Source: Haloferax sp. Q22 (lineage in GTDB: Archaea; Halobacteriota; Halobacteria; Halobacteriales; Haloferacaceae). Taken from it: a stretch of 64,000 nt of DNA. This document shows positions 27,104 to 42,406 of the stretch, piece after piece. The position numbers and the translations under genes are program-made. The notes below the pieces were generated by a model. It had not been told where the DNA came from. It was given only the letters and a program-made list of their open reading frames with translations, and ran no database searches. Each line of letters starts with the position of its first letter. The first letter of the stretch is position 1. Where the stretch lies: positions 62,001 to 126,000 of the forward strand of contig NZ_LOEP01000009.1 of NCBI RefSeq assembly GCF_001482285.1. The letters run 5' to 3'.

Positions 27104-27203
27104 GATAGTCGATTACGTATCCCTCGCGAAATAGGTTCGCCCCGCAGTGCAGTCGGGTGACCGCATCATTTTTATCATATTCTATCATCGAGTTCAAACG
27201 TAC

Positions 27204-28493
27204 ATGGTATTCGATAGCACGGAGACCGCCTCGCGGGAGGAACTCCGCGAGGTGCAGGATGGTCGCCTGCGGGAGACGGTTCGGAACGCGTACGAGAACG
27301 TCGAGTTCTATCGCGAGACGTTCGACGAGGCCGGACTCTCGCCCGCGGACATCGGGAGCGTCGAAGACCTGTCGAAACTGCCGTTCACGACGAAGGAGGA
27401 CTTCCGCGACCACTACCCCACGGGGATGTTCGCGGTCGACATGGACGACGTGATTCGCGTCCACGCGTCGTCGGGTACGACCGGCAAGCCCAAAATCGTC
27501 GGCTACACCCGCGAAGACCTCGACGTGTGGAGCAAGGCCGTCGCGCGGTGTCTCGTCGCGGCCGGCGTCGGTTCGGACGACGTGGTTCAGAACGCCTACG
27601 GCTACGGCCTGTTCACCGGTGGTCTCGGCCTCCACCAGGGCGTCGAGGAACTCGGCGCGACGGTCATCCCCATCGGCGGCGGCAACACCCAGCGACAGGT
27701 GGAACTGCTCTCCGACCTCGGAAGCGACGTCATCGCGTGTACCCCGTCGTACGCGCTCTATCTCGCCGAAGTCGCAGACGACATGGGAATCGACATCCGC
27801 GACCTGCCGCTTCGGACGGTCATCTTCGGCGCGGAGCCCTGCACCGAACCGATGCGAAACGAAATCGAAGCGCGACTCGGCGTGACCGGCATCGACATCT
27901 ACGGCCTCTCGGAAATCGTCGGCCCCGGCGTCTCCGTCGAGTGCGAGGCGCAGGACGGCCTGCACATCTGGGAGGACTACTTCTACCCCGAGGTGGTCGA
28001 CCCGAACACGGGCGACCCCGTCGAGGAGGGCGAGGAGGGAGAACTCGTGTTGACGACCCTCGCGAAGGACGCGTTGCCGGTCCTCCGGTATCGGACGGGC
28101 GACCTGACCACGCTGGACTACGGTACCTGTGAGTGCGGCCGAACCTGCGTCCGCATGGACAACATCACGGGCCGGTCGGACGACCTGATAATCGTTCGCG
28201 GCGTGAACTTCTACCCGAGCGAGATCGAGTCGGTCGTCCTCGAGTTCGACGAAATCGCGCCGCACTACCGCATCGACCTCCGCCGCGAGGGGACCCTCGA
28301 CCGGGTCGAAATCACGGTCGAACTTGTCGAGGAGTTCGGCGGGTCGCTGTCGGACCTCGAAGGGCGGATTCAAAAGCGGCTCTCGAACGTGCTCTCGTTT
28401 ACGCCCGACGAACTGAATCTCGTCGAGTACGGCGACATCGCGCGCACCGAGGTCGGAAAGGTCCAGCGCGTCTACGACCACCGCGGCCAGTAA
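27204..28493 (+). CDS. paaK: Phenylacetate-CoA ligase family enzyme
   Basis: A 429-residue adenylate-forming enzyme of the PaaK family, activating phenylacetate or a related aryl acid to its CoA thioester with ATP. The phosphate-binding loop SSGTTGKPK is at residues 89-97; GLSEIVGPG, YRTGDL and GRSDDLIIVRGVNFYPSEIE are the later adenylation motifs, and the C-terminal AMP-binding-C domain is present. Length is normal. The ATG at 27204 lies 30 bp after TTTATCATAT, a TATA-like box; two TATCAT direct repeats flank it. It diverges from the thiolase gene. Substrate identity rests on family and on paaABCD 10 kb away. Confidence 0.92.
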   Translation: MVFDSTETASREELREVQDGRLRETVRNAYENVEFYRETFDEAGLSPADIGSVEDLSKLPFTTKEDFRDHYPTGMFAVDMDDVIRVHASSGTTGKPKIVGYTREDLDVWSKAVARCLVAAGVGSDDVVQNAYGYGLFTGGLGLHQGVEELGATVIPIGGGNTQRQVELLSDLGSDVIACTPSYALYLAEVADDMGIDIRDLPLRTVIFGAEPCTEPMRNEIEARLGVTGIDIYGLSEIVGPGVSVECEAQDGLHIWEDYFYPEVVDPNTGDPVEEGEEGELVLTTLAKDALPVLRYRTGDLTTLDYGTCECGRTCVRMDNITGRSDDLIIVRGVNFYPSEIESVVLEFDEIAPHYRIDLRREGTLDRVEITVELVEEFGGSLSDLEGRIQKRLSNVLSFTPDELNLVEYGDIARTEVGKVQRVYDHRGQ

Positions 28494-31081: not shown

Positions 31082-31186
31082 GAGGGACGAATCAGTAGTT
31101 CAGGGCCGAACGCGACGTTCTTGTCGCCGTCGAAACGCAAACATTTAAACGTGAAGTTTTTCATGTTACATGTGAACATACACACC

Positions 31187-32446
31187 ATGAGAGACGATTG
31201 TTCAGCGGACAGCGGCGCACAGCCGCGTCCGTCGCGGCGACGGTTCGTACAGGCGGCTGGGTTGGCGGGCGTGACCGGGCTGACGGGCGTCGCCGGCTGT
31301 CTCGGTGGCGGTGGGGGCGGCGGGTCGAACGCCATCACCTATGGAGTGATTAGCCCGATGACCGGCCCGTACGGCGGCCTCGCGGTCGGCCAGCGAAACG
31401 GGGCCGAGTTAGCGATACGGCACGTCAACGAGAACGCGGACATCGACGTGGAGATAACGGGCGTCTACGAGGACACCGAGGCGGACCCCTCGACCGGCCG
31501 GCGGAAGGCGCAGTCGGTCGTCGAACAGGACGGGGCGTCGTATCTCATGGGCGCGATATCGTCCAGCGTCGCGCTCGCGCTCAACGAGTTCGCGGCCGAA
31601 GAGGAGATTATCTACAACCCCGGCGGGGCCGCGGTTCCAATCACGGGGTCGAACTGCAACGAGTGGGTGTTCCGCGCCGAGACGAACACGGCGCAGATGG
31701 CCGAAGCCGTCTCCGACTACACCGCCGAGAACCTCGGCACCAAGGTGTGGTTCCACATCGCCGACTACGCCTACGGCGAGTCGGTGATGCAGCGCGTCGA
31801 GCGCCGCATGCGCGACGGCCACGACATCGAAGTCGTCGGCCGGAGCCGCTCGCAACTCGGCTCGACCAACTACAACTCCTACGTCAGTCAAATCGCCAAC
31901 TCCGACGCCGAGGTGGCGGTTCTCGGCATGACCGGCGGTGACCTCATCAACTTCGTCAAGCAGGCGGCGAGCCAGGGGCTCAAAGAGAGCGTGAACCTCA
32001 TGTCGCCGACGATGACGTTCTCGGTCGTCCGCGGCGCGCTCGGCGAAGCCGCCTACGGCACCTACGGCGGAGTTCGCTACCTGCCGACGCTCGAAACGGG
32101 CGACAACCAGTCGTTCGTCGAGGCCTACCGGAGCGAGTACGACTCTCTCCCGGACAACTTCGCGCGGGCCGCGTACATGTCCATCCGGATGACTGCGCGG
32201 GGCATCGCGGAGGCCGGGTCGACCGACCCCGCGGAGGTCAAGGAGGTGCTCCCGGGCCTCGAAATGGACACGATTCTCGGGCCGAACCAGTTCCGCGACT
32301 GCGACCATCAGGCGATGAACCCGGTGTGGCCGGGCGAACTCGTCGCGCCGGACGGTGGGAGCGGTCCCGCGACCGTCGAACTCGGCGAGATGATCGCCGG
32401 GGCGGACGCGCTCCCCGACTGCGGCGAACTCGGCTGCTCGCTCTAG
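31187..32446 (+). CDS. Branched-chain/aromatic-acid-type ABC transporter substrate-binding lipoprotein
   Basis: A 419-residue LivJ-type binding protein. The Tat signal RRRFVQAAGLAG (residues 17-28) and lipobox VAGC (Cys38) are followed by a Gly-rich linker, then the type I periplasmic-binding fold (ITYGVISPMTGPYGGLAVGQ, LMGAISSSVALALNEFAAEE). LivJ relatives in aromatic-degradation islands bind benzoates, phenylacetate or other acids as well as amino acids. ATG 31187 is preferred; longer in-frame Mets upstream are before the promoter-like CATTTAAAC at 31142. Stop and permease start are 1 bp apart. Confidence 0.93.
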   Translation: MRDDCSADSGAQPRPSRRRFVQAAGLAGVTGLTGVAGCLGGGGGGGSNAITYGVISPMTGPYGGLAVGQRNGAELAIRHVNENADIDVEITGVYEDTEADPSTGRRKAQSVVEQDGASYLMGAISSSVALALNEFAAEEEIIYNPGGAAVPITGSNCNEWVFRAETNTAQMAEAVSDYTAENLGTKVWFHIADYAYGESVMQRVERRMRDGHDIEVVGRSRSQLGSTNYNSYVSQIANSDAEVAVLGMTGGDLINFVKQAASQGLKESVNLMSPTMTFSVVRGALGEAAYGTYGGVRYLPTLETGDNQSFVEAYRSEYDSLPDNFARAAYMSIRMTARGIAEAGSTDPAEVKEVLPGLEMDTILGPNQFRDCDHQAMNPVWPGELVAPDGGSGPATVELGEMIAGADALPDCGELGCSL

Positions 32447-32447
32447 C

Positions 32448-34436
32448 ATGTCGGTCGCTAGTGCCGTCGCCGAACAGGTCCTCAACGGGCTCGTCGTCGG
32501 GATGGTGTACGTCCTGCTCGCGGCCGGACTCTCTATCATCTTCGGCGTCATGGACGTCATCAACTTCGCCCACGGCGAGCTGTTCGCTCTCGGCGCGTAC
32601 TTCGCGTTCGCCATCGCCGGCCCTCTCGGCGGCGCGGGCTTCTGGGTCGCGCTCGTCGTCGCGCCCCTCCTCGTCGGCGTCGTCGGGATGGGCATCGAGC
32701 GGCTCACCGTCAAGCGGCTGTACGGCCGCGACCCGCTGTACCACATCCTCCTGACGTTCGGGCTCGTCCTCATCATCAACGACCTCATCACGTCGGTGTG
32801 GGGCAAGTCCGCCCAGCCGTTTCCGGTTCCCTCGGTCCTCGACCAGCCGGTCGCGCTGTTCGGGTTCAACTACTCGCTGTACAACTACGGCATCATCGTC
32901 TTCGGCTCGGCGCTGGCGCTCGGCACGTGGCTCCTGTTGAACCGCACCCGCTTCGGGATGATAATCCGCGCCGGCTCCGAGGACCGCGAGATGGTCCGTA
33001 CCCTCGGCATCAACATCGACCGCTACTACACTCTGACGTTCGGGTTCGGCGCGGCGCTCGCCGGCGTCGCCGGCATCGTCCTCGGCGCGTACCAGAACGT
33101 CAGCCCGACGATGGGGAGTTCGGTCATCATCCCGGCGTTCGTCATCGTCGTTCTCGGCGGCCTCGGGTCGTTCCGCGGGGCCGTGGTCGGCGGTCTGTTC
33201 GTCGGTCTCGTCCAGACGTTCGCCCGGACGTACACGCCGTTCTTGGAGGGACTCATCGTCTTCCTGCTCATGATTGCCGTGCTCGTCGTCAAGCCGACGG
33301 GGCTGTTCGGCACGAGCGTCGGCGCGGGCGACCACCACGACGGTGCGCTCCTTCACGGCTCCGGCGGCGGCGTGCTGTCCGCGGAAACCCGCGCGAAACT
33401 CGGCTACGCCGGCGTTGGCGCGCTCCTCATCGTCCCGCTTCTCGCGGAGGTGACCGGCGTCACCTACTCCGTGACGCTCCTCGAAGACATCCTCATCTGG
33501 GCACTGTTCGCGCTCAGCCTCGACCTCGTGCTCGGCTACGCGGGCCTCGTCTCGCTCGGTCACACGCTGTTTTACGGGGTCGGCGCGTACGCCTCGGTTC
33601 TCACGCTCATGCACGTCTCACCGTCGGTGTTCGTCGCGCTCGTCGTCGCCGTCGCCGTCTGCGCGGCCATCGCGTGGGGCGTCGGCTACCTCTCGATACG
33701 CGTGTCCGGGGTGTTCTTCGCCATGATAACCCTCGGGTTCGCGGAGCTGTTCTACAACGCCGTGTTCAAGTTCGACTTCACCGGCGGCTCCGACGGCCTG
33801 TTCGGCGTCGACGCGTTCTACGGTCTCGCCGGCCTCGGCATCGACCCCGGCGAGTTCACGGTCCCGCTGGGTCCGTTCGTCCTCGACGGCGGCGTCGTCC
33901 AGTACTACTTCCTCCTCGCCGTCGTGGTCGGGTCGTACCTGCTGGCCCGCCGCCTCATCCGCGCACCGTTCGGCTCGGTGCTGCAGTCCATCCGCGAGAG
34001 CGAAGAACGCGCCTCGTTCATCGGCTACGACGTGACCGCCTACAAGCGCCGCGCCTTCGTCGTCTCCGGCGGCCTCGCGGGGCTCGCCGGCGGGCTGTTC
34101 GCCGCCAACAACGGCTACGTCGCGCCGTCGTTTCTCCACTGGATAAACTCGGGCGAGGTAATCGTGATGACGGTCCTCGGCGGCATGGGGACGCTCTACG
34201 GGCCGATGCTCGGCGCGGGCGTCTTCGTCGCCGCGGAGGACGTGCTCTCGTCGTACATCGACCAGTGGCAGCTCGTTATCGGCGTGCTGTTCGTCCTGTT
34301 CGTCATCTTCGTGCCGCGGGGGCTCGTGTCGCTCCCGCAGACGGTGGCGGACCACCCGATTTTCGAATCGGCCGTCGGCGACCGCGTCGGCGAACAGGCC
34401 GGCGTCACCGACCCGGAGGTAGACCGCCATGAGTGA
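32448..34436 (+). CDS. Fused LivH-LivM permease of a branched-chain-type ABC transporter
   Basis: A 662-residue membrane protein that joins two permeases normally encoded separately. Residues 1 to about 300 are LivH-like (FGVMDVINFAHGELFALGAY, LLNRTRFGMIIRA, VVLGGLGSFRGAVVGGLFVG); after a polar linker (SVGAGDHHDGALLHGSGGG) residues about 325-640 are LivM-like (LDLVLGYAGLVSLGHTLFYG, RRLIRAPFGSVLQSIRES, VLGGMGTLYGPMLGAGVF). Frame and coding character are continuous through the join, so it is a true fusion. The single chain would form both halves of the membrane channel with LivG and LivF. It overlaps livG by 8 bp. Confidence 0.93.
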   Translation: MSVASAVAEQVLNGLVVGMVYVLLAAGLSIIFGVMDVINFAHGELFALGAYFAFAIAGPLGGAGFWVALVVAPLLVGVVGMGIERLTVKRLYGRDPLYHILLTFGLVLIINDLITSVWGKSAQPFPVPSVLDQPVALFGFNYSLYNYGIIVFGSALALGTWLLLNRTRFGMIIRAGSEDREMVRTLGINIDRYYTLTFGFGAALAGVAGIVLGAYQNVSPTMGSSVIIPAFVIVVLGGLGSFRGAVVGGLFVGLVQTFARTYTPFLEGLIVFLLMIAVLVVKPTGLFGTSVGAGDHHDGALLHGSGGGVLSAETRAKLGYAGVGALLIVPLLAEVTGVTYSVTLLEDILIWALFALSLDLVLGYAGLVSLGHTLFYGVGAYASVLTLMHVSPSVFVALVVAVAVCAAIAWGVGYLSIRVSGVFFAMITLGFAELFYNAVFKFDFTGGSDGLFGVDAFYGLAGLGIDPGEFTVPLGPFVLDGGVVQYYFLLAVVVGSYLLARRLIRAPFGSVLQSIRESEERASFIGYDVTAYKRRAFVVSGGLAGLAGGLFAANNGYVAPSFLHWINSGEVIVMTVLGGMGTLYGPMLGAGVFVAAEDVLSSYIDQWQLVIGVLFVLFVIFVPRGLVSLPQTVADHPIFESAVGDRVGEQAGVTDPEVDRHE

Positions 34437-35193
34437 CCCTATACTGCGGACCGAGAACCTGACGAAAGAGTTCGGCAAGCTCGTCGCCGTCGACGACGTG
34501 ACCCTCGACGTGGAACGCGGCGAGTTCCGGAGTCTCATCGGCCCGAACGGGGCCGGCAAGACGACGACGTTCAATCTCTTGACCGGCGCGCTCCGGCCGA
34601 CCCGCGGTACCGTGACGTTCAACGGCGAGAACGTGACCGCGCTCCCGCCGCACGAGCGCGTGCGCCGCGGCCTCGGCCGGTCGTTCCAAATCACGAACGT
34701 CTTCTCGGGGCTCACGGTCCGCGAGAACGTCCGCCTCGCCGCGCAGGCGGCCCGCGAGGGCGGTTTCACGCCGGTCGAAGAGTACCTCCGGCGAAGCGAC
34801 GCCTTCAACGACGTGAACGAGCACACCGACCGCGTGCTCGACCGCTCCGGCCTCTTGGGCCGCGGCGACGAACCCGCGGACGTGCTCGCCTACGGTGACA
34901 AGCGCCGGCTCGAAATCGCCATCGTGCTCGCCACCGACCCCGACATGGTGCTTCTGGACGAACCGACCGCCGGCATGAGTGCCGAGGAGACGCGGGCCAC
35001 GATGGACCTCATCGACGAGGTGCTGTCGGACCGGACGCTCCTGCTCATCGAACACGATATCGACCTCGTGATGCGGGTGTCCGACCGCATCACGGTTCTC
35101 CACCGCGGCGAGGTACTGGCCGAGGGGACGCCCGAGGCCGTCTCGGAGGATCCGGAGGTCCGCGAGGCCTACTTCGGGGGTGTCGAGGCGTGA
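34429..35193 (+). CDS. livG: ABC transporter ATPase, LivG-type
   Basis: A 254-residue ATPase of the branched-chain amino-acid/aromatic-acid importer. Walker A GPNGAGKT is at residues 38-45, the signature loop is the LivG-type LAYGDKRRLEIA, and Walker B/D-loop is MVLLDEPTAGMS, followed by H-loop LLLIEHDIDLVM. Overlaps both the fused permease (8 bp) and livF (4 bp), consistent with one message. Confidence 0.95.
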   Translation: MSDPILRTENLTKEFGKLVAVDDVTLDVERGEFRSLIGPNGAGKTTTFNLLTGALRPTRGTVTFNGENVTALPPHERVRRGLGRSFQITNVFSGLTVRENVRLAAQAAREGGFTPVEEYLRRSDAFNDVNEHTDRVLDRSGLLGRGDEPADVLAYGDKRRLEIAIVLATDPDMVLLDEPTAGMSAEETRATMDLIDEVLSDRTLLLIEHDIDLVMRVSDRITVLHRGEVLAEGTPEAVSEDPEVREAYFGGVEA

Positions 35194-35918
35194 CCGACGA
35201 ACCGCTCTTGTCCGTCCGCGGACTCGTCTCGGGCTACGGGTCGACCCGTGTCCTGCAGGGCATCGACCTCGACGTGCCTCGGGGGTCGGTCGTCACGCTC
35301 ATCGGGCGCAACGGCGTCGGCAAGACGACGACGCTCCGGAGCATCCTCGGGAACGTCCCGCCGTCCGAGGGGACTATCACCTTCGACGGGACGGACATCA
35401 CGACGCTGTCGCCGGAGAAGACCGCCCGCGAGGGCATCGCACTCGTCCCCGAGGAGCGCCGCGTCTTCCCCGGCCTGACCGTCACCGAGAACGTCGAAAT
35501 CGGCCGCATCGGCGGTCGTCGAGATGTCGAGAAACCGAGTGTCGACGCCATCGTCGACGAGTTCGAGAACCTCGCGCGCCACCGGAACAGCCGGGGGGCG
35601 AACCTCTCGGGCGGCGAACAGCAGATGCTCGCTATCGCCCGCGCGCTCGTCTCCGCGCCGGACCTCCTGTTGCTCGACGAACCGACCGAAGGGCTCGCGC
35701 CCGCTATCGTCAAACAGGTCCAGCGAAAAATCGAGGAACTGAACGACGACGGCGCGACCATCCTTCTGGTCGAACAGAACGTACAGGTCGCCCTCGACGC
35801 CGCGGACTACGTCTACATCCTCGACAAGGGCCGGGTCGTCCACGAGGGCCCCGCCGACGAGGTCGCGGCCGCCGACGAAGTGCTCGACCGGTACCTCGGC
35901 GTCTCGATGGCCGACTGA
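35190..35918 (+). CDS. livF: ABC transporter ATPase, LivF-type
   Basis: A 242-residue ATPase, second nucleotide-binding subunit of the importer. Walker A GRNGVGKT is at residues 39-46, the signature is LSGGEQQMLAIARAL, and Walker B is LLLLDEPTEGLAP. The start is GTG at 35190, overlapping the livG stop by 4 bp. It closes the SBP-LivHM-LivG-LivF set. Confidence 0.95.
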   Translation: MTDEPLLSVRGLVSGYGSTRVLQGIDLDVPRGSVVTLIGRNGVGKTTTLRSILGNVPPSEGTITFDGTDITTLSPEKTAREGIALVPEERRVFPGLTVTENVEIGRIGGRRDVEKPSVDAIVDEFENLARHRNSRGANLSGGEQQMLAIARALVSAPDLLLLDEPTEGLAPAIVKQVQRKIEELNDDGATILLVEQNVQVALDAADYVYILDKGRVVHEGPADEVAAADEVLDRYLGVSMAD

Positions 35919-36447: not shown

Positions 36448-37899
36448 ATGGAATACAGTGGCCCGACCAGTCTCTACATCGACGGGGACTGGGTAGCCGC
36501 GGCATCGGACGAGACCATCGAGACGCGCGACCCGGCGACCGAAGCGCCGTACGCCGAGGTCGCCCGCGCTGGCGAGGCGGACGTCGACGCCGCGGTGCGG
36601 GCGGCGAACTCGGCGGGCGCTCGCGGCGGCGAGTGGGAGACCACGAGCGCGGCCGAGCGCGGCGAGAAACTGCGCGCGATGGCCGACTTCATCGAGGCGC
36701 GGAAAGACGAGATCGCGCTCGTCGAGTCCCACGATAACGGCAAGACACCGTTCGAGGCCGGTATGGAGGTCCAGATGGTCGTCGACACCTTCCGCTACTA
36801 CGCCGGGTGGACCGACAAGGTGACCGGCGAGTACAACCCCGTCCCCGGCCGGCGCGTCAACTACACGACCCGCGAACCGCTCGGCGTCACCGGACACATC
36901 GTCCCGTGGAACTACCCCTTCCAACTCGCGGGGCGCAGTCTCGCGCCGGCGCTCGCCTGCGGCAACACGGCGGTGGTAAAGCCGTCCAGCCAGACGCCGC
37001 TTTCGGCGCTCTACTACGGCCTCGCGGCCGAGGAAGCCGGCCTCCCCGACGGCGTGGTGAACGTGGTTCCCGGAAGCGGGTCCGAGGCGGGGTCGGCGCT
37101 CGCGTCGCACCCCGACGTGGCGCACGTCACCTTCACCGGCAGCACCGACGTCGGCAAAGGCGTCATGGCCGACGCCGCGGCCAACGTGACTGGGGTCACG
37201 CTCGAACTCGGCGGGAAGGGCCCCAACGTCGTCTTCCCCGACGCCGACCTCGACGCCGCCGCCAAGGGCGTCCACTACGGCATCTTCATGAACGCCGGCC
37301 AGATGTGCTGGGCCGGCTCGCGCCTGCTCGTCCACGAGGACGTTGCCGACGACCTCGTCGAGCGAATCGTCGCGCGCGCCGAGTCGACCCCGCTGGGATC
37401 TGGCATCGACGACGACGGCCGGATGGGACCGGTCGTCAGCGAGTCTCACCGCGAGGACGTGTTGGAGTACATCTCCCTCGGCGTCGAGGAGGGAGCGACC
37501 GTCGCCTGCGGCGGGGGCGTCCCCGAGGACAAGGAGACCGGCTACTTCGTGGAACCGACGGTTCTCACCGACGTGACGAACGACATGACCGTGGCCCGCG
37601 AGGAGATATTCGGCCCGGTCCTCGTCGTCACCGAGTTCTCGGACCGAACGGAGGCAGTCGAACTCGCCAACGACTCGCCGTACGGGCTTCTCGCCGGCGT
37701 CTGGACCGACGGGCTCTCTCGTGCTCACGGCGTCGCCGACGCGCTCGACTACGGAATGGTCAGCGTCAACGAGTACCCGGTCACGTTCCCGCAGACGCCC
37801 TTCGGCGGCACGAAACAGAGCGGCCACGGCCGCGAGCAGGGTGCGGAAGCCGTCCGCGAGTTCACGCAGGCGAAGAACGTGAACCTCAACCTCGGCTGA
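36448..37899 (+). CDS. NAD(P)-dependent aldehyde dehydrogenase
   Basis: A 483-residue ALDH-superfamily enzyme. Catalytic Cys287 is in AGQMCWAGSRL, general-base Glu253 in VTLELGGKGPNVVF, and the cofactor motif FTGSTDVGKGVM precedes. The pattern is of the betaine/general aldehyde dehydrogenase type rather than obviously the PaaZ N-terminal domain. It would oxidise an aldehyde intermediate of the aromatic or diol branch to an acid. Immediately downstream are 31-bp hairpin repeats and the convergent paa operon. Confidence 0.94.
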   Translation: MEYSGPTSLYIDGDWVAAASDETIETRDPATEAPYAEVARAGEADVDAAVRAANSAGARGGEWETTSAAERGEKLRAMADFIEARKDEIALVESHDNGKTPFEAGMEVQMVVDTFRYYAGWTDKVTGEYNPVPGRRVNYTTREPLGVTGHIVPWNYPFQLAGRSLAPALACGNTAVVKPSSQTPLSALYYGLAAEEAGLPDGVVNVVPGSGSEAGSALASHPDVAHVTFTGSTDVGKGVMADAAANVTGVTLELGGKGPNVVFPDADLDAAAKGVHYGIFMNAGQMCWAGSRLLVHEDVADDLVERIVARAESTPLGSGIDDDGRMGPVVSESHREDVLEYISLGVEEGATVACGGGVPEDKETGYFVEPTVLTDVTNDMTVAREEIFGPVLVVTEFSDRTEAVELANDSPYGLLAGVWTDGLSRAHGVADALDYGMVSVNEYPVTFPQTPFGGTKQSGHGREQGAEAVREFTQAKNVNLNLG

Positions 37900-38293: not shown

Positions 38294-38737
38294 TCACACC
38301 CCCAGTCCGAACTTGCGGAGGGCCTCGCGGCCCGCCTCGGTCACCATGTCGACGGTCCACTCCGGCGTGAACCGGAGCCGGACAGACGCCTCGTCGACGC
38401 CGGCCGCCAGAATCGCGCACTGCACGTCGTTTTCGAGGTAGTCGCGCGCCGGACAGCCGGTGTAGGTCAGCGTCATCTCGACGATACCGAGCGTCTTCGC
38501 CTCGCCGTCTTCGCCCTCCCGCTCGACGACGCGAACGTCGTAGATGAGGCCGAGGTCGACGATGCTCACCGGCATCTCGGGGTCCTCGATTTCGTAGAGG
38601 GCGTCCCAGATGTCGGCTTCGACGCCCGTGGCTCCGACACCCGTCTTCGGGAAGCCCTCGGGAACCGCGCCGTCGACGTACTCGGTGTGGCCGCAGGCGG
38701 TCGCGTCAGGGGCGTCGTCGGCGCTCACGTCAGACAC
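38294..38737 (-). CDS. paaD: Phenylacetyl-CoA epoxidase maturation protein PaaD (MIP18 domain only)
   Basis: A 147-residue DUF59/MIP18-family protein. The domain spans about residues 41-145, with IEDPEMPVSIVDLGLIYDVR and the Cys-containing TYTGCPARDYLENDVQ. PaaD helps assemble the metal centre of the ring epoxidase. The N-terminal about 40 residues are an acidic extension. Start is GTG at 38737, overlapping the paaC stop by 8 bp. The usual C-terminal zinc ribbon is encoded by the next gene. Confidence 0.92.
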   Translation of the reverse strand: MSDVSADDAPDATACGHTEYVDGAVPEGFPKTGVGATGVEADIWDALYEIEDPEMPVSIVDLGLIYDVRVVEREGEDGEAKTLGIVEMTLTYTGCPARDYLENDVQCAILAAGVDEASVRLRFTPEWTVDMVTEAGREALRKFGLGV

Positions 38738-39548
38738 GCTCCCTGCCGATTCGCGCCGGCTCGGGCGCTTCGAGCTCCTCGTACGTCCGCCGGAACTCCG
38801 CGGCCAGTTCGTCCCAGTGGTCGGTGTGGGTGCCGTCGCGACCGCGGGCGCTCGGGCGTTCGACCTCGTCGGGTTCGGGCACGTCGAGCCCGAGCGATTC
38901 GAGGTACGGGATGACCGTCTCCAGCCACTCGATGCGGAGGTCGGCGGTGGACATCGTCCGGAAGCCGTTGTCGATGATTGCCTCCTCGTGGTCGGGCTCG
39001 GCGAAAAGCGAGAGCGCGTGGGGGAACAGCCGGTCGAGCGCGTCCTGCACGCGGTCGCGGCTGTCGCCCTCGGCGAGGCGGTCGAGCCAGCTCTGGGCGT
39101 TTTCGAGGTGGTAACGCTCCTCGCTCAGCACCTTGCCGACGCGGTCGGCGAGCGGCGCGTAGCTGGTGTCGACGAGCGCGTCGAGACGCAGGCGTTCGGC
39201 GGCGTCGTAGAGGTAGCACCGCAGGATGACGTCGGCCCAGTCGCCCTCCGCGAACGGGAGTTCGACCAGCGTGGCGTGCCTGAACTCGTCGGCGGGGCGC
39301 TCCCAGATGAGTTCCGCTTCGGTGTGGCCGAGCTCTTCGAGCAGGTCGTACCACAGCCGAGCGTGGCCGAACTCGTCCTGCGCGACGTTCGCCAACGCGA
39401 GGTCGGACTCCAGCGTCGGCGCGTAAATCTGCCACTCGATGAGGCGCTCGCCGTGGACGTACTCGTCGTCCGCGAGGCGGAACAGCAGCTCTTCGAGCGC
39501 GGCGCGCTGTTCGGCGTCGAGGTCTTCGGGGTTGAGCGTCGCTGGCAT
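38730..39548 (-). CDS. paaC: Phenylacetyl-CoA epoxidase subunit PaaC, with ferritin-like metal motif retained
   Basis: A 272-residue ferritin-fold subunit, structural partner of PaaA in the phenylacetyl-CoA 1,2-epoxidase. The first conserved helix reads ALANVAQDEFGHARLWYD with Glu59 and His62; the second SEERYHLENAQSWLDRL also has a Glu-His pair. In the enterobacterial PaaC as I recall it the first motif is degenerate (DLLGQAR), so these residues are noteworthy. Starts 2 bp before the paaB stop region boundary (39548 against 39551), i.e. tightly packed in the operon. Confidence 0.93.
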   Translation of the reverse strand: MPATLNPEDLDAEQRAALEELLFRLADDEYVHGERLIEWQIYAPTLESDLALANVAQDEFGHARLWYDLLEELGHTEAELIWERPADEFRHATLVELPFAEGDWADVILRCYLYDAAERLRLDALVDTSYAPLADRVGKVLSEERYHLENAQSWLDRLAEGDSRDRVQDALDRLFPHALSLFAEPDHEEAIIDNGFRTMSTADLRIEWLETVIPYLESLGLDVPEPDEVERPSARGRDGTHTDHWDELAAEFRRTYEELEAPEPARIGRERV

Positions 39549-39550
39549 GG

Positions 39551-39871
39551 TTAGCTGTCCGCCTCGAGCGATTTCTCCACGTCGGCCTGCTCGGCCTCGC
39601 TTTCGGCGACTTCCGGCGCGGCCGGTTCGATGTCCGTGTACGAGGTGGCCCAGCGGTAGGTCTTGTCGGTCGTTCCGCCGAAGCTCGTCTCGTCGGCGTC
39701 GATTTCGCCGATTTCGTCGTGCGGGACGACCCACAGGCTGTGGGTCTTCATCCGCCGGCCGTGCTGGACGGCCGCGAACTGCAGCGCCAACTCGCGGTCC
39801 GGCGCGTGGACGTTGCCGCAGTGTTTGTGGTACGCTCCCGGTTTATCCTGTCTGAACACTTCCCAAATCAT
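39551..39871 (-). CDS. paaB: Phenylacetyl-CoA epoxidase subunit PaaB
   Basis: A 106-residue small subunit that bridges PaaA-PaaC heterodimers. WEVFRQDKPGAYHKHCGNVH, with HAPDRELALQFAA and SLWVVPHDEI, is the family pattern. A roughly 30-residue acidic tail follows. ATG 39871 lies 5 bp after the paaA stop; an in-frame upstream extension overlapping paaA is rejected. Confidence 0.94.
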   Translation of the reverse strand: MIWEVFRQDKPGAYHKHCGNVHAPDRELALQFAAVQHGRRMKTHSLWVVPHDEIGEIDADETSFGGTTDKTYRWATSYTDIEPAAPEVAESEAEQADVEKSLEADS

Positions 39872-39876
39872 GGCTC

Positions 39877-40821
39877 TCAGTCCGCCGCCTGCGGGGTTCC
39901 GGCCCCCGACGCGCCCTCCCAGCTGTGCATCGATTCGCGCACCCACTCGACCGCCGCTTGCGCCTGCGAGCGGGAGTTAATCTGCTCGTGGCTCCCCTCG
40001 GAGGCGTTCTTGGCGATGGTCCAGAACTCGTCCCAGTTCAGGTCGTCCTCGTTGACGTGGTAGGTGTCGAGTTCCTCGTCGTACTCGATGCGCGGGTACT
40101 CGGGGACGACGAGGCCGTACTTCTCGGCTTTCGGGACGTACGTGTCGAGGAAGGTGTCGCGCAGCTCGTCGTTGGACTTCGTCTTCAGGCCGACCTCCTG
40201 CGCGAAGTCGTTGTGGACGGATTTGTCGTTGGTCGGGCCGAAGAACTGGATGATCCGCGGCCACCACGTCTCGAAGGCGGCCTGCGTCTTCTCTTGTGTC
40301 GCCTTCGACCCGTTCATCAACTCGGAGAGGATGGATTCGCCGTGTTTGACGTGGAAGCCCTCCTCGAAGCACACCTTGTCCATCGCGTGGGCGTACGGCG
40401 TCCACGACGTGTTTTTGAGCGTCGCCTGCCGGTGCATGGCCGCGCCGTCGACGAAAAACGCTATCATCGGCACCTCGTGCCACGACTCCATCGGGTAGTG
40501 GAAGCAGTTGAGGAACTTCCCCTCACCGCGGGCGAGTTCGTCGAGCATCTCGTCGCGCGTCTTGACGCCGAGGGACTCGGCGGCGCGGTAGAGCAGTTGT
40601 GCGTGGCCGATTTCGTCCTGTACTTTCGCCGAGAACGCCAACTTTCGGTCGATGCTCGGCGCTTGCCGGATGAACGGCTTTTCGAGATACCCGCCCATCA
40701 CCTCGCTGTTCGCGTGGAACTGAATCATCCGCGTCGCGGCCTTGCGGTACTCCTCGGGCATGTCGTCTTTCGGAGCGAACTGCCGCGGGCCCGCTCGTTC
40801 TTTGACGGTTTCGAGGTCCAT
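39877..40821 (-). CDS. paaA: Phenylacetyl-CoA epoxidase catalytic subunit PaaA
   Basis: A 314-residue ferritin-like di-iron oxygenase subunit that epoxidises the ring of phenylacetyl-CoA. Metal-binding motifs are HANSEV, KVQDEIGHAQLLYRA and KVCFEEGFHVKHGE (Glu and ExxH pairs). First gene of the paaABCD-zinc ribbon operon on the minus strand. ATG 40821 has a TATA-like AGTTATAGAT (40841-40850) about 25 bp upstream. It diverges from a Bat-type regulator gene. No PaaE reductase gene appears in the window. Confidence 0.95.
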   Translation of the reverse strand: MDLETVKERAGPRQFAPKDDMPEEYRKAATRMIQFHANSEVMGGYLEKPFIRQAPSIDRKLAFSAKVQDEIGHAQLLYRAAESLGVKTRDEMLDELARGEGKFLNCFHYPMESWHEVPMIAFFVDGAAMHRQATLKNTSWTPYAHAMDKVCFEEGFHVKHGESILSELMNGSKATQEKTQAAFETWWPRIIQFFGPTNDKSVHNDFAQEVGLKTKSNDELRDTFLDTYVPKAEKYGLVVPEYPRIEYDEELDTYHVNEDDLNWDEFWTIAKNASEGSHEQINSRSQAQAAVEWVRESMHSWEGASGAGTPQAAD

Positions 40822-40840
40822 TGGTCTATCAGGAACTATC

Positions 40841-40890
40841 ATCTATAACTACTTACGAATTGACCCGTCCATGGCCTGCCTTTTTATATC
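40841..40890. promoter_or_regulatory. Divergent TATA boxes for paaA and its probable regulator
   Basis: On the minus strand AGTTATAGAT (40841-40850) lies about 25 bp before the paaA ATG. On the plus strand TTTTTATATC (40881-40890) lies about 27 bp before the ATG at 40913. Both fit leaderless haloarchaeal promoters in a 91-bp shared region, where a regulator could affect both. Confidence 0.65.
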
Positions 40891-40912: not shown

Positions 40913-41551
40913 ATGATAGCGGAGTGCTTGGTGGCCGAGTTTCGAATCGACGGCGACGACTGCCCGTTGGCGCGGGCGACCGACGCGGTCCCCGTCGCGG
41001 TCGATGCGAACGCGCCGCAACTCCGCGCCGACGGCAACGTCCTGCTTCACTTTTCCGCCCCCGCGGACGACCGACTCCCCGAGGCCCTCGACGACGACGA
41101 CGCCATCCGCTACCTCCACGTCACCCGCGGCGACGACACGTACACTTTCCGCTGTCTCTCGAAACACCCCTGCGTCGTTCACGAACTCGTCGACGCCGGC
41201 TTCCTCGTCGAGTCGATGCGGTACGACGACGGCGGCGCGACGATGCGCGGGGCGGTCGTCGGCTACGACGTGCTCCGCGGCGTGATGGAGACGGCCGGCG
41301 GCACTGTCGGCATCCAACTCCAGCGCGTCTACCCCCTCCGGGCGGACGAGGAATCACCCATCGGTCGGGCGTGGGACCTCACGCCCGCGCAGGAAGCCGC
41401 TCTCCGGGCGGCCGTCGAGATGGGGTACTTCGACCTCCCCCGGAGTATCACGGCTCAGGACGTTGCGGACGAACTCGGAATCAGCAAGTCGGCGTTCCTC
41501 GAACGGCTCCGCAGGGCACAACAGTCGGTGTTCGGGGCGCTGCTCGCGTGA
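40913..41551 (+). CDS. Bat-type HTH-10 regulator, probable paa regulator
   Basis: A 212-residue regulator of the Bat/HTH-10 type found in haloarchaea. The N-terminal domain (about 1-140) is an alpha/beta ligand- or interaction domain; the C-terminal HTH-10 (LTPAQEAALRAAVEMGYFDL, ITAQDVADELGISKSAFLER) binds DNA. It is divergent from paaA and adjacent to paaG, so control of the paa genes is likely. A second member lies at 51299. No PAS or GAF domain, unlike full-length Bat. Confidence 0.9.
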   Translation: MIAECLVAEFRIDGDDCPLARATDAVPVAVDANAPQLRADGNVLLHFSAPADDRLPEALDDDDAIRYLHVTRGDDTYTFRCLSKHPCVVHELVDAGFLVESMRYDDGGATMRGAVVGYDVLRGVMETAGGTVGIQLQRVYPLRADEESPIGRAWDLTPAQEAALRAAVEMGYFDLPRSITAQDVADELGISKSAFLERLRRAQQSVFGALLA

Positions 41552-41641: not shown

Positions 41642-42406
41642 ATGCGAGTCGACGACGCCGACGGCGTCCGGACCGTGACGTTCGACAGACCCGAGGCGAA
41701 AAACGCGTTCACCGCCGACGTGGCCCGAGAGCTCTCGGCGGCGCTCGAACAACTCACGCCCGAGGCGTTCGACGCCGCGGTGATAACGGGTGACGGCGAC
41801 GCCTTCAGCGCCGGCGGTGACATTCGGGCGATGGCCGAACGCGACGAGACCGCCCGCGAGGCCTACGAGCGCGTCCGCGGCACCCTCGGCCGCGTCGCCG
41901 AGGCGATTCTCACCGCCCCGGTGCCGGTCGTCGCCCGCGTCAACGGCGACGCCGTGGGCGCGGGAACCTCCGTCGTCGCCGCCTGCGACTTCGCCTACGC
42001 CGCCAGCGACGCCCGGTTCGGCGCGTCGTTCGTCAACGTCGGTCTCGTCCCCGACGCGGGCGCGACAGTGACGCTTCCCCGGTTGGTCGGCCTCCGCGCC
42101 GCGAAGGAACTCGCCTTCACCGGGAAACTCATTTCGGCCGAGCGCGCCGCGGCACTCGACCTCGTGAACGAGGCGGTCGAGCCCGCCGACCTCGATGCCG
42201 TCGTGGACGAGACGGTGGAGACGCTCGCCGCACAGCCGACGGAGACGCTCGCGCTGGCGAAAGAAGCGATACACGCGAACCTCGGCCGGTCGTGGGCGGA
42301 CGGCCTCGAACGCGAGGCCCACGCCCAGACCCTCGCCTACGACACTGACGCCCACGAGGAGGGCGTTTCCGCGTTCTTGGAGAAGCGGCCGCCGGAGTTC
42401 GACTGA
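41642..42406 (+). CDS. paaG: Enoyl-CoA hydratase/isomerase, PaaG-like
   Basis: A 254-residue crotonase-fold enzyme. NGDAVGAGTSVVAACDFA forms the oxyanion hole; FVNVGLVPDAGATVTLPRLVG replaces the second catalytic Glu of hydratases by the LVPDxG Asp seen in PaaG, which isomerises ring-epoxy-phenylacetyl-CoA to the oxepin form. This, and location beside paaA and its regulator, favour PaaG over a general hydratase. It begins 90 bp after the regulator, behind a 9-bp GACTCGCTC tandem repeat. Confidence 0.85.
   Translation: MRVDDADGVRTVTFDRPEAKNAFTADVARELSAALEQLTPEAFDAAVITGDGDAFSAGGDIRAMAERDETAREAYERVRGTLGRVAEAILTAPVPVVARVNGDAVGAGTSVVAACDFAYAASDARFGASFVNVGLVPDAGATVTLPRLVGLRAAKELAFTGKLISAERAAALDLVNEAVEPADLDAVVDETVETLAAQPTETLALAKEAIHANLGRSWADGLEREAHAQTLAYDTDAHEEGVSAFLEKRPPEFD

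Follow-up and report, generated by a model that had tools for sequence, protein, structure and literature searches.

In the 64,000-nucleotide stretch of Haloferax sp. Q22 DNA analysed here (the window), the PaaC subunit of the 1,2-phenylacetyl-CoA epoxidase carries all six iron-ligand positions of the catalytic subunit PaaA of E. coli, namely E29, E59, H62, D115, E144 and H147. The existence of this ligand set is firm, and a metal bound by it is predicted. We consider it probable, from the sequences compared below, that haloarchaeal PaaC both binds metal at a second, predicted site and retains an ancestral state. In the literature searched, which excluded the primary PaaAC structure papers, no account of the metal ligands of archaeal PaaC was found, and within that literature the complete PaaC ligand set in haloarchaea is an undescribed variant of a known subunit. 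PaaC ligands go unmentioned in the accessible portions of PMC13186573, PMC9493321, and PMC2653477; the first of these, a 2026 pathway survey, uses PaaA and PaaC as markers and reports 32 haloarchaeal cases in the portion available.

Four genes in the order paaA-paaB-paaC-paaD, the order typical of a PaaC locus, run on the minus strand from 40842 down to 38294. The first, paaA (39877..40842, minus), encodes the catalytic diiron subunit (TIGR02156, 287.1 bits, cut-off 280), with ligands EEHDEH and both the lysine and the glutamate of the lysine bridge present in the alignment. It is followed by paaB (39551..39871, minus), encoding the bridging subunit (NF041867 paab_haloarch, 179.9 bits, cut-off 150), whose start was placed at the ATG at 39871 within a longer ORF. 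The paaC gene (38730..39548, minus) encodes a protein of 272 aa that scores 176.3 bits with the PaaC model TIGR02158, above its cut-off of 133.35, and 86.7 bits with the PaaA model TIGR02156, far under the cut-off of 280, and is thus a member of the PaaC family and not of the PaaA family. Finally, paaD (38294..38737, minus), for a SufT-like assembly factor (NF041868 paad_haloarch, 180 bits, cut-off 180), overlaps the 3' end of paaC by 8 bases. A scan of contigs with the single window PaaC protein retrieved 29 loci, all haloarchaeal, the four nearest being from Haloferax species at 94-98% identity, and a profile search found that Haloferax volcanii also encodes the PaaC family.

The surrounding genes include further candidates for phenylacetate catabolism. 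A divergent gene of the HTH_10/BAT type (40913..41551, plus; PF04967 and PF15915), with an inferred start that was picked by eye, is likely the regulator of the paa cluster. An enoyl-CoA hydratase/isomerase family gene (41642..42406, plus) is a candidate of the PaaG/oxepin-CoA type and an aldehyde dehydrogenase gene (36448..37899, plus) is a candidate for the PaaZ dehydrogenase step, both scoring below the cut-offs of the NCBIfam models. Farther away lies paaK, for a phenylacetate-CoA ligase of the haloarchaeal type (27147..28493, plus; NF041878, 796.1 bits, cut-off 700). Between paaK and paaDCBA, at 31121-35918, are the genes of an ABC transporter of the branched-chain amino acid/urea type, comprising a binding protein, a permease fusion, and two ATPases, which is a candidate importer of aromatic acids.

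An earlier sequence-only reading of this DNA had stated that enterobacterial PaaC has lost the first ligand pair, with DLLGQAR in its place, and had claimed a Glu-His pair in each of two motifs of the window PaaC. E. coli K-12 PaaC (locus L032) indeed has DLLGQAR in the same helix, and the translation of 38730-39548 on the minus strand contains NVAQDEFGHARLW (E59 and H62) and a second motif, SEERYHLE (E144 and H147). That reading overlooked E29 in helix 1 and D115 in helix 3, and so understated what is a complete six-residue set. The E. coli PaaA iron ligands are E42, E72, H75, D126, E155, and H158 per the accessible part of PMC4498308, with an identical set in that of PMC7497051. We aligned PaaA and PaaC of E. 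coli, Deinococcus, Thermus, Saprospira, Streptomyces, and Haloterrigena, plus the window proteins, with L-INS-i. In this alignment, and with all codons on the minus strand, Glu29 (39462..39464) corresponds to PaaA Glu42 and is Cys in E. coli PaaC; Glu59 (39372..39374) corresponds to Glu72 and is Leu in E. coli PaaC; His62 (39363..39365) corresponds to His75 and is Gln; Asp115 (39204..39206) corresponds to Asp126 and is Asp in E. coli PaaC as well; Glu144 (39117..39119) corresponds to Glu155 and is Ala; and His147 (39108..39110) corresponds to His158, which is retained in every canonical PaaC aligned. BLASTP of the window PaaC against E. coli PaaA confirmed the register for the last five ligands; when haloarchaeal PaaC and PaaA were aligned profile to profile, it agreed for all six. 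The window PaaC thus shows the diiron pattern E, ExxH, D/E, ExxH on four helices (E29, E59xxH62, D115, E144xxH147); the absence of other required ligands, which the earlier reading had named as counting against it, is not seen in the sequence alignment, where all six are present.

To place this set among its relatives, we assembled a family set from 125 loci and four named reference rows, yielding 252 sequences, or 227 after duplicate removal; rows L001 (the window PaaC) and L032 (E. coli PaaA and PaaC) are repeats, and the alignment excludes family matches spanning fewer than 140 residues. The haloarchaeal canonical PaaC sample consists of 76 aligned rows, 75 of them distinct, and all 75 distinct sequences read EEHDEH (the six positions in order); their pairwise identity averages 57%, with a minimum of 29%. 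Across the 76 rows only 21 of the 272 columns do not vary, and these include all six ligand columns. The six are likewise among the 29 invariant columns obtained without the divergent row L053, and they are also invariant in 55 representatives at 90% identity. The hypergeometric probability of finding six ligands among the invariant columns is about 1e-7 (about 9e-7 without L053), a value that serves as a guide only, the rows being related. The invariance of the ligand columns in haloarchaeal PaaC is not due to chance. Row L053 comes from one haloarchaeal genome with a strongly divergent canonical pair, in which both subunits have the six ligands.

The bacterial canonical PaaC sample comprises 13 sequences, with Bacilli, Clostridia, and chromosomal Deinococcota lying outside it; the divergent PaaA/PaaC-like sequences L122, the second copy in L113, L119, and L123, as well as the Thermus row, were not counted as bacterial canonical PaaC. 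Eleven of the 13, from three phyla, are degenerate and lack between three and five of the six ligands. Their six positions read CLQDAH in E. coli, QLQDVH in Acinetobacter, -LQDAH in Halomonas (where the N-terminus falls outside the frame read), SLHDVH in Azospirillum, TLQDVH in Paracoccus and Sinorhizobium, NLQDIH in Saprospira, ALQGTH in Streptomyces, ALQALH in Gordonia and Embleya, and ALQSVH in Nonomuraea. The remaining two are from Deinococcus: D. psychrotolerans PaaC reads DEHDKH, with two substitutions, and that of Deinococcus sp. QL22 reads EEHDEH, the only intact set among the bacterial sequences. Within the phyla reached, then, the motif is not common among bacterial PaaCs (full set in 1/13), and the other outcome that the earlier reading had named as speaking against it, common retention in bacteria, is not seen either. 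The last His is present in 13/13 bacterial canonical PaaCs, and among the 11 degenerate PaaCs 7 have D126 (PaaA numbering); these two residues therefore have some further use. A scan of viral contigs with a four-sequence PaaC alignment returned 79 stretches fitting a pattern, none of which was confirmed as a bacterial relative.

We generated a predicted structure of the window PaaC with AlphaFold2, using as input 30 sequences (the window and 29 haloarchaeal loci, some beginning inside the gene). The model, which is of high confidence (pLDDT 87.4, pTM 0.87), places the ligands on four helices, at residues 12-40, 46-72, 104-123, and 131-160. Its best fold match is E. coli PaaC itself (1OTK; Z 31.4, rmsd 1.6 over 240 residues), so that the predicted fold is that of PaaC, and the top eight structural matches are all PaaC chains from E. 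coli and Klebsiella (Z 30-31, rmsd 1.6-1.9). The next match is 4MUD, SSO1313 of Sulfolobus solfataricus, a PaaA/PaaC-like protein that shares the fold (Z 23.3, rmsd 2.2) and has six ligand-type residues, as read by eye in a printed alignment to PaaA, but is only 24% identical to the window PaaC in the structural alignment. Aldehyde-deformylating oxygenases and BoxB follow at Z 18-19. PaaA chains also appear in the Foldseek list for the model. The diiron fold is shared more distantly with bacterial multicomponent monooxygenases such as methane monooxygenase and phenol hydroxylase, whose hydroxylase chains match at Z of about 16; the beta subunits of these enzymes are not known to carry a diiron site. 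The E. coli and Klebsiella PaaCs (1OTK, 3PVR, 4IIT), structural subunits of PaaABCE, share the family model, operon order, and fold with the window PaaC; E. coli PaaC differs at the six ligand positions, which read C, L, Q, D, A, and H in it and E, E, H, D, E, and H in the window protein. Bacterial PaaC is described as the 'non-iron containing' subunit in the accessible text of PMC7497051, and the site loss behind that description, which is not part of the family model, is absent from the window PaaC. Since E. coli PaaC keeps the fold without the ligands, the fold by itself does not account for their invariance in haloarchaea.

Residues around the site were compared as well. In the available part of PMC4498308, F108 of PaaA orients the phenyl ring, K103 covers the pocket, and K68 and E49 form a lysine bridge. 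Among 88 PaaA rows, K68 and K103 are found in 88, F108 in 87, and Glu or Asp at position 49 in 88; residue 286 was left out, being Trp in the E. coli sequence used and Leu according to the review. Haloarchaeal PaaC instead has Ile, Asn, Val, or Leu at the K68 position in 76/76, Tyr, Leu, or Phe at the E49 position in 76/76, Lys at the K103 position in just 2/76, and Val at the F108 position in 58/76, and so has neither the lysine bridge nor the substrate residues of PaaA. Near the metal site, the PaaA-invariant residues Q70 and Y80 (PaaA numbering; Q57 and Y67 of PaaC) are present in 100% and 96% of haloarchaeal PaaCs, as against 0% and 18% of degenerate PaaCs, while H158, D71, and E154 (H147, D58, and E143 of PaaC) are at 100% in both. 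As judged from sequence, haloarchaeal PaaC has retained the metal-site side of PaaA and not the substrate side. It resembles the window PaaA in having all six ligands, at 29% identity over 231 columns, and differs from it in the missing K68/E49 bridge, K103, and F108 and in scoring under the PaaA cut-off.

These comparisons bear on two alternatives. That PaaC could be a second catalytic oxygenase in the complex, acting on another substrate or repeating the PaaA reaction, is suggested by the completeness of the ligand set and by the presence of active diiron oxygenases (BoxB and aldehyde-deformylating oxygenase) among the near folds beyond PaaC and 4MUD. However, PaaC has not retained the PaaA residues K103, F108, K68, and E49 and is more variable than PaaA (mean column identity of 59% over 30 rows versus 78% over 16 rows), and we regard such a role as very improbable. 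The lack of the lysine bridge and of K103/F108 in turn makes a second phenylacetyl-CoA epoxidase site unlikely, and the earlier statement that PaaA is the only catalytic subunit, made for enterobacteria, may still hold here. We also think it unlikely, though less so, that the six residues form a metal-free hydrogen-bond and salt-bridge network or a folding core in a PaaC as purely structural as that of bacteria. H147, D58, and E143 persist even where PaaC has lost its ligands, which points to a non-metal role for part of the motif, and in the second, PaaC-like subunit PaaC2 (described below) a Lys replaces the first Glu in 21/21 sequences, suggesting that the scaffold tolerates charges there without a full ligand set. 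Yet E. coli PaaC has the same fold although Cys, Leu, Gln, and Ala occupy four of its six sites, and haloarchaea show little or no variation at the ligands and the neighbouring Q57 and Y67, most of which degenerate PaaC has lost. Ligand conservation is not proof of metal occupancy. Nevertheless, the second metal site that the earlier reading had raised is favoured by six invariant ligands and the right predicted fold, and it stands as a prediction from alignment and model.

For the history of the site, a maximum-likelihood tree was built from 65 rows (28 of the 76 canonical haloarchaeal PaaCs, 13 bacterial PaaCs, 8 PaaC2, and 16 PaaA/PaaA2) with the six ligand columns removed and the root placed between the PaaA and PaaC types. 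Haloarchaeal PaaCs form a clade containing 27 of the 28 rows (support 100/97). The exception is the L053 PaaC (EEHDEH), whose long branch attaches basally to the bacterial side, a placement that is unsure. All 13 bacterial PaaCs form a clade (99/97) in which the Deinococcus pair (100/99) stands beside the 11 degenerate sequences (100/99), and PaaC2 lies outside canonical PaaC (85/46). The PaaC-like genes of a Thermus plasmid were considered as canonical PaaC and rejected, since in the tree they group, weakly supported (85/46), with PaaC2. With states coded as full, Lys-first, or other, a minimum of four changes is needed: a loss before the 11 degenerate PaaCs, the decay in D. psychrotolerans, the Lys in PaaC2, and one further change, in a divergent PaaA2. 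Within this sample, the ancestral state of canonical PaaC is therefore the full ligand set, and its single loss falls on the branch from which the sampled proteobacterial, actinobacterial, and Bacteroidota PaaCs descend. The ancestral state before PaaC degeneration, which had been offered as a possibility, is well supported by this tree.

The reverse course, in which a degenerate bacterial PaaC was transferred to haloarchaea and there regained the full set, would fit the distribution of matches in a phylum-wide search, which fell in 47 of 392 genomes, all in the order of the window's organism, as acquisition from bacteria would have it. But haloarchaeal PaaC is not nested in the degenerate clade, and at least three ligand changes would have to reverse together; regain was rejected from the tree, and we find it barely credible. 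A further reading concerns rarity only and is compatible with an ancestral, metal-binding PaaC: many bacterial PaaCs, in Bacilli, Clostridia, and chromosomal Deinococcota, may be intact, and the E. coli type may be the exception of one large clade. The intact PaaC of Deinococcus sp. QL22 lies between haloarchaea and the degenerate clade, and Bacilli, which are outside the present sample, make up 8.8% of the bacterial set of the 2026 survey (PMC13186573, in the part available). On the other side, 11/13 bacterial canonical PaaCs have lost three to five ligands and D. psychrotolerans has two substitutions. We hold this reading to be a real possibility, if not the one we would favour; should Bacilli or Deinococcota share the ligand set, intact PaaC would be less rare than E. 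coli implies.

The best explanation, in our view, is that haloarchaeal PaaC is a true PaaC, the heterodimer partner of PaaA, that never underwent degeneration of the E. coli type. It would hold a carboxylate-bridged dimetal site, most likely diiron, formed by Glu29, Glu59/His62, Asp115, and Glu144/His147 on the four helices of a ferritin-like bundle. PaaA would remain the phenylacetyl-CoA epoxidase, and the PaaC site might be auxiliary, in redox or electron transfer or O2 support, or at least structural. The ancestral full set would have been lost once, toward the sampled proteobacterial, actinobacterial, and Bacteroidota PaaCs, all of which occur with PaaE.

PaaE is a fused FAD/[2Fe-2S] reductase. 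It is encoded with 11/11 degenerate PaaC copies: that of E. coli is known from annotation, those of Saprospira, Streptomyces, Paracoccus, Azospirillum, Embleya, Gordonia, Halomonas, and Sinorhizobium (8 of the 11 records) were matched by a profile search of the records, and those of Acinetobacter and Nonomuraea were found by scanning the stretch around paaC. Six of the eight profile matches are above the cut-off; the other two are Streptomyces, at 391 bits, and Saprospira, where the gene is split by the start of the record. The same search found no match on the two Deinococcus plasmids or the Thermus PaaC2 plasmid, having covered the plasmid records of these organisms. Thermus composti and Deinobacterium chartae have a PaaC-model match and are not among the PaaE-model matches at E 0.001. 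Across 116 haloarchaeal genomes, 55 of which have a PaaC above its own cut-off, none has PaaE above 420.8 bits, with three partial matches at E 1e-20, the best at 83.8. In the window's own genome the best score is 55.4 bits against 420.8, all five matches being partial, and this search thus found no PaaABCE set there. Ligand loss and the presence of PaaE are correlated through a single transition on the tree (effective n of one), which may be coincidence, and a causal link is weakened because the site of D. psychrotolerans decays on a plasmid without PaaE. It would be a decidedly speculative step to propose a two-site epoxidase in haloarchaea and partly in Deinococcus, in which a redox-active PaaC site serves as a ferredoxin entry port or reservoir feeding PaaA, and in which the gain of PaaE made the site dispensable and let PaaC decay.

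In haloarchaea, the complex would run without the fused reductase, with electrons probably coming from a separate ferredoxin. Six Fer2 matches were found in the window's own genome and none on the contig with the paa cluster (C56); those on contigs C28, C45, C16, C15, C10, and C22 are candidate electron donors replacing PaaE. The PaaC site would probably be loaded via PaaD, whose gene adjoins paaC in 29/29 haloarchaeal loci and in both Deinococcus loci. It has been proposed that PaaD matures subunit A and/or E (PMC7497051, in the part available), and the presence of PaaD without PaaE favours a role in serving the diiron subunit or subunits rather than the reductase only, and so bears on what PaaD matures.

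According to the accessible text of PMC4498308, the complex contains six irons, of which two PaaA carry four and PaaE the other two. The picture of one iron site in the epoxidase may fail outside bacteria with degenerate PaaC, and if the haloarchaeal PaaC site is loaded, the epoxidase would differ between lineages in its metal stoichiometry and possibly in its electron path. Haloferax (intact), Deinococcus (intact and decaying), and E. coli (lost) would represent an ordered series from a diiron oxygenase subunit to a pseudo-enzyme. The presence of the PaaC family in a laboratory archaeon, Haloferax volcanii, makes these predictions testable.

A second PaaA/PaaC-like pair, PaaA2/PaaC2, was found in haloarchaea and Thermus (L067 3851-6144, L125 1959-4217, L094-L111, and the Thermus plasmid L064 2302-4705). 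It is accompanied by a PaaD-like gene, with a 2Fe-2S ferredoxin gene nearby in L067 and L125. PaaA2 has the six ligands in nearly all sequences, and PaaC2 differs from the window PaaC in the first Glu, the position of the Lys, while of the five remaining ligand positions it retains at least four; four of the 21 PaaC2 sequences also have Gln for the first His. This Glu-to-Lys change loosely resembles, by analogy, the metal-free R2e ribonucleotide reductases treated in the available part of PMC11846895. Additional copies were seen singly or in other contexts. An Alteromonas plasmid (L121 3303-5658) has a lone PaaA/PaaC-like gene, reading EEHEEH, beside a radical SAM gene and a MaoC-family dehydratase gene, and Paracoccus sp. 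TOH (L113 5423-6175) has a third PaaA/PaaC-like gene, reading EKHGEH, immediately after paaE. On a plasmid of Streptomyces sp. Mut1 (L123 1266-7678), two PaaA/PaaC-like genes lie among ketoacyl-ACP synthase III genes, a cluster that is perhaps a biosynthetic use of the fold.
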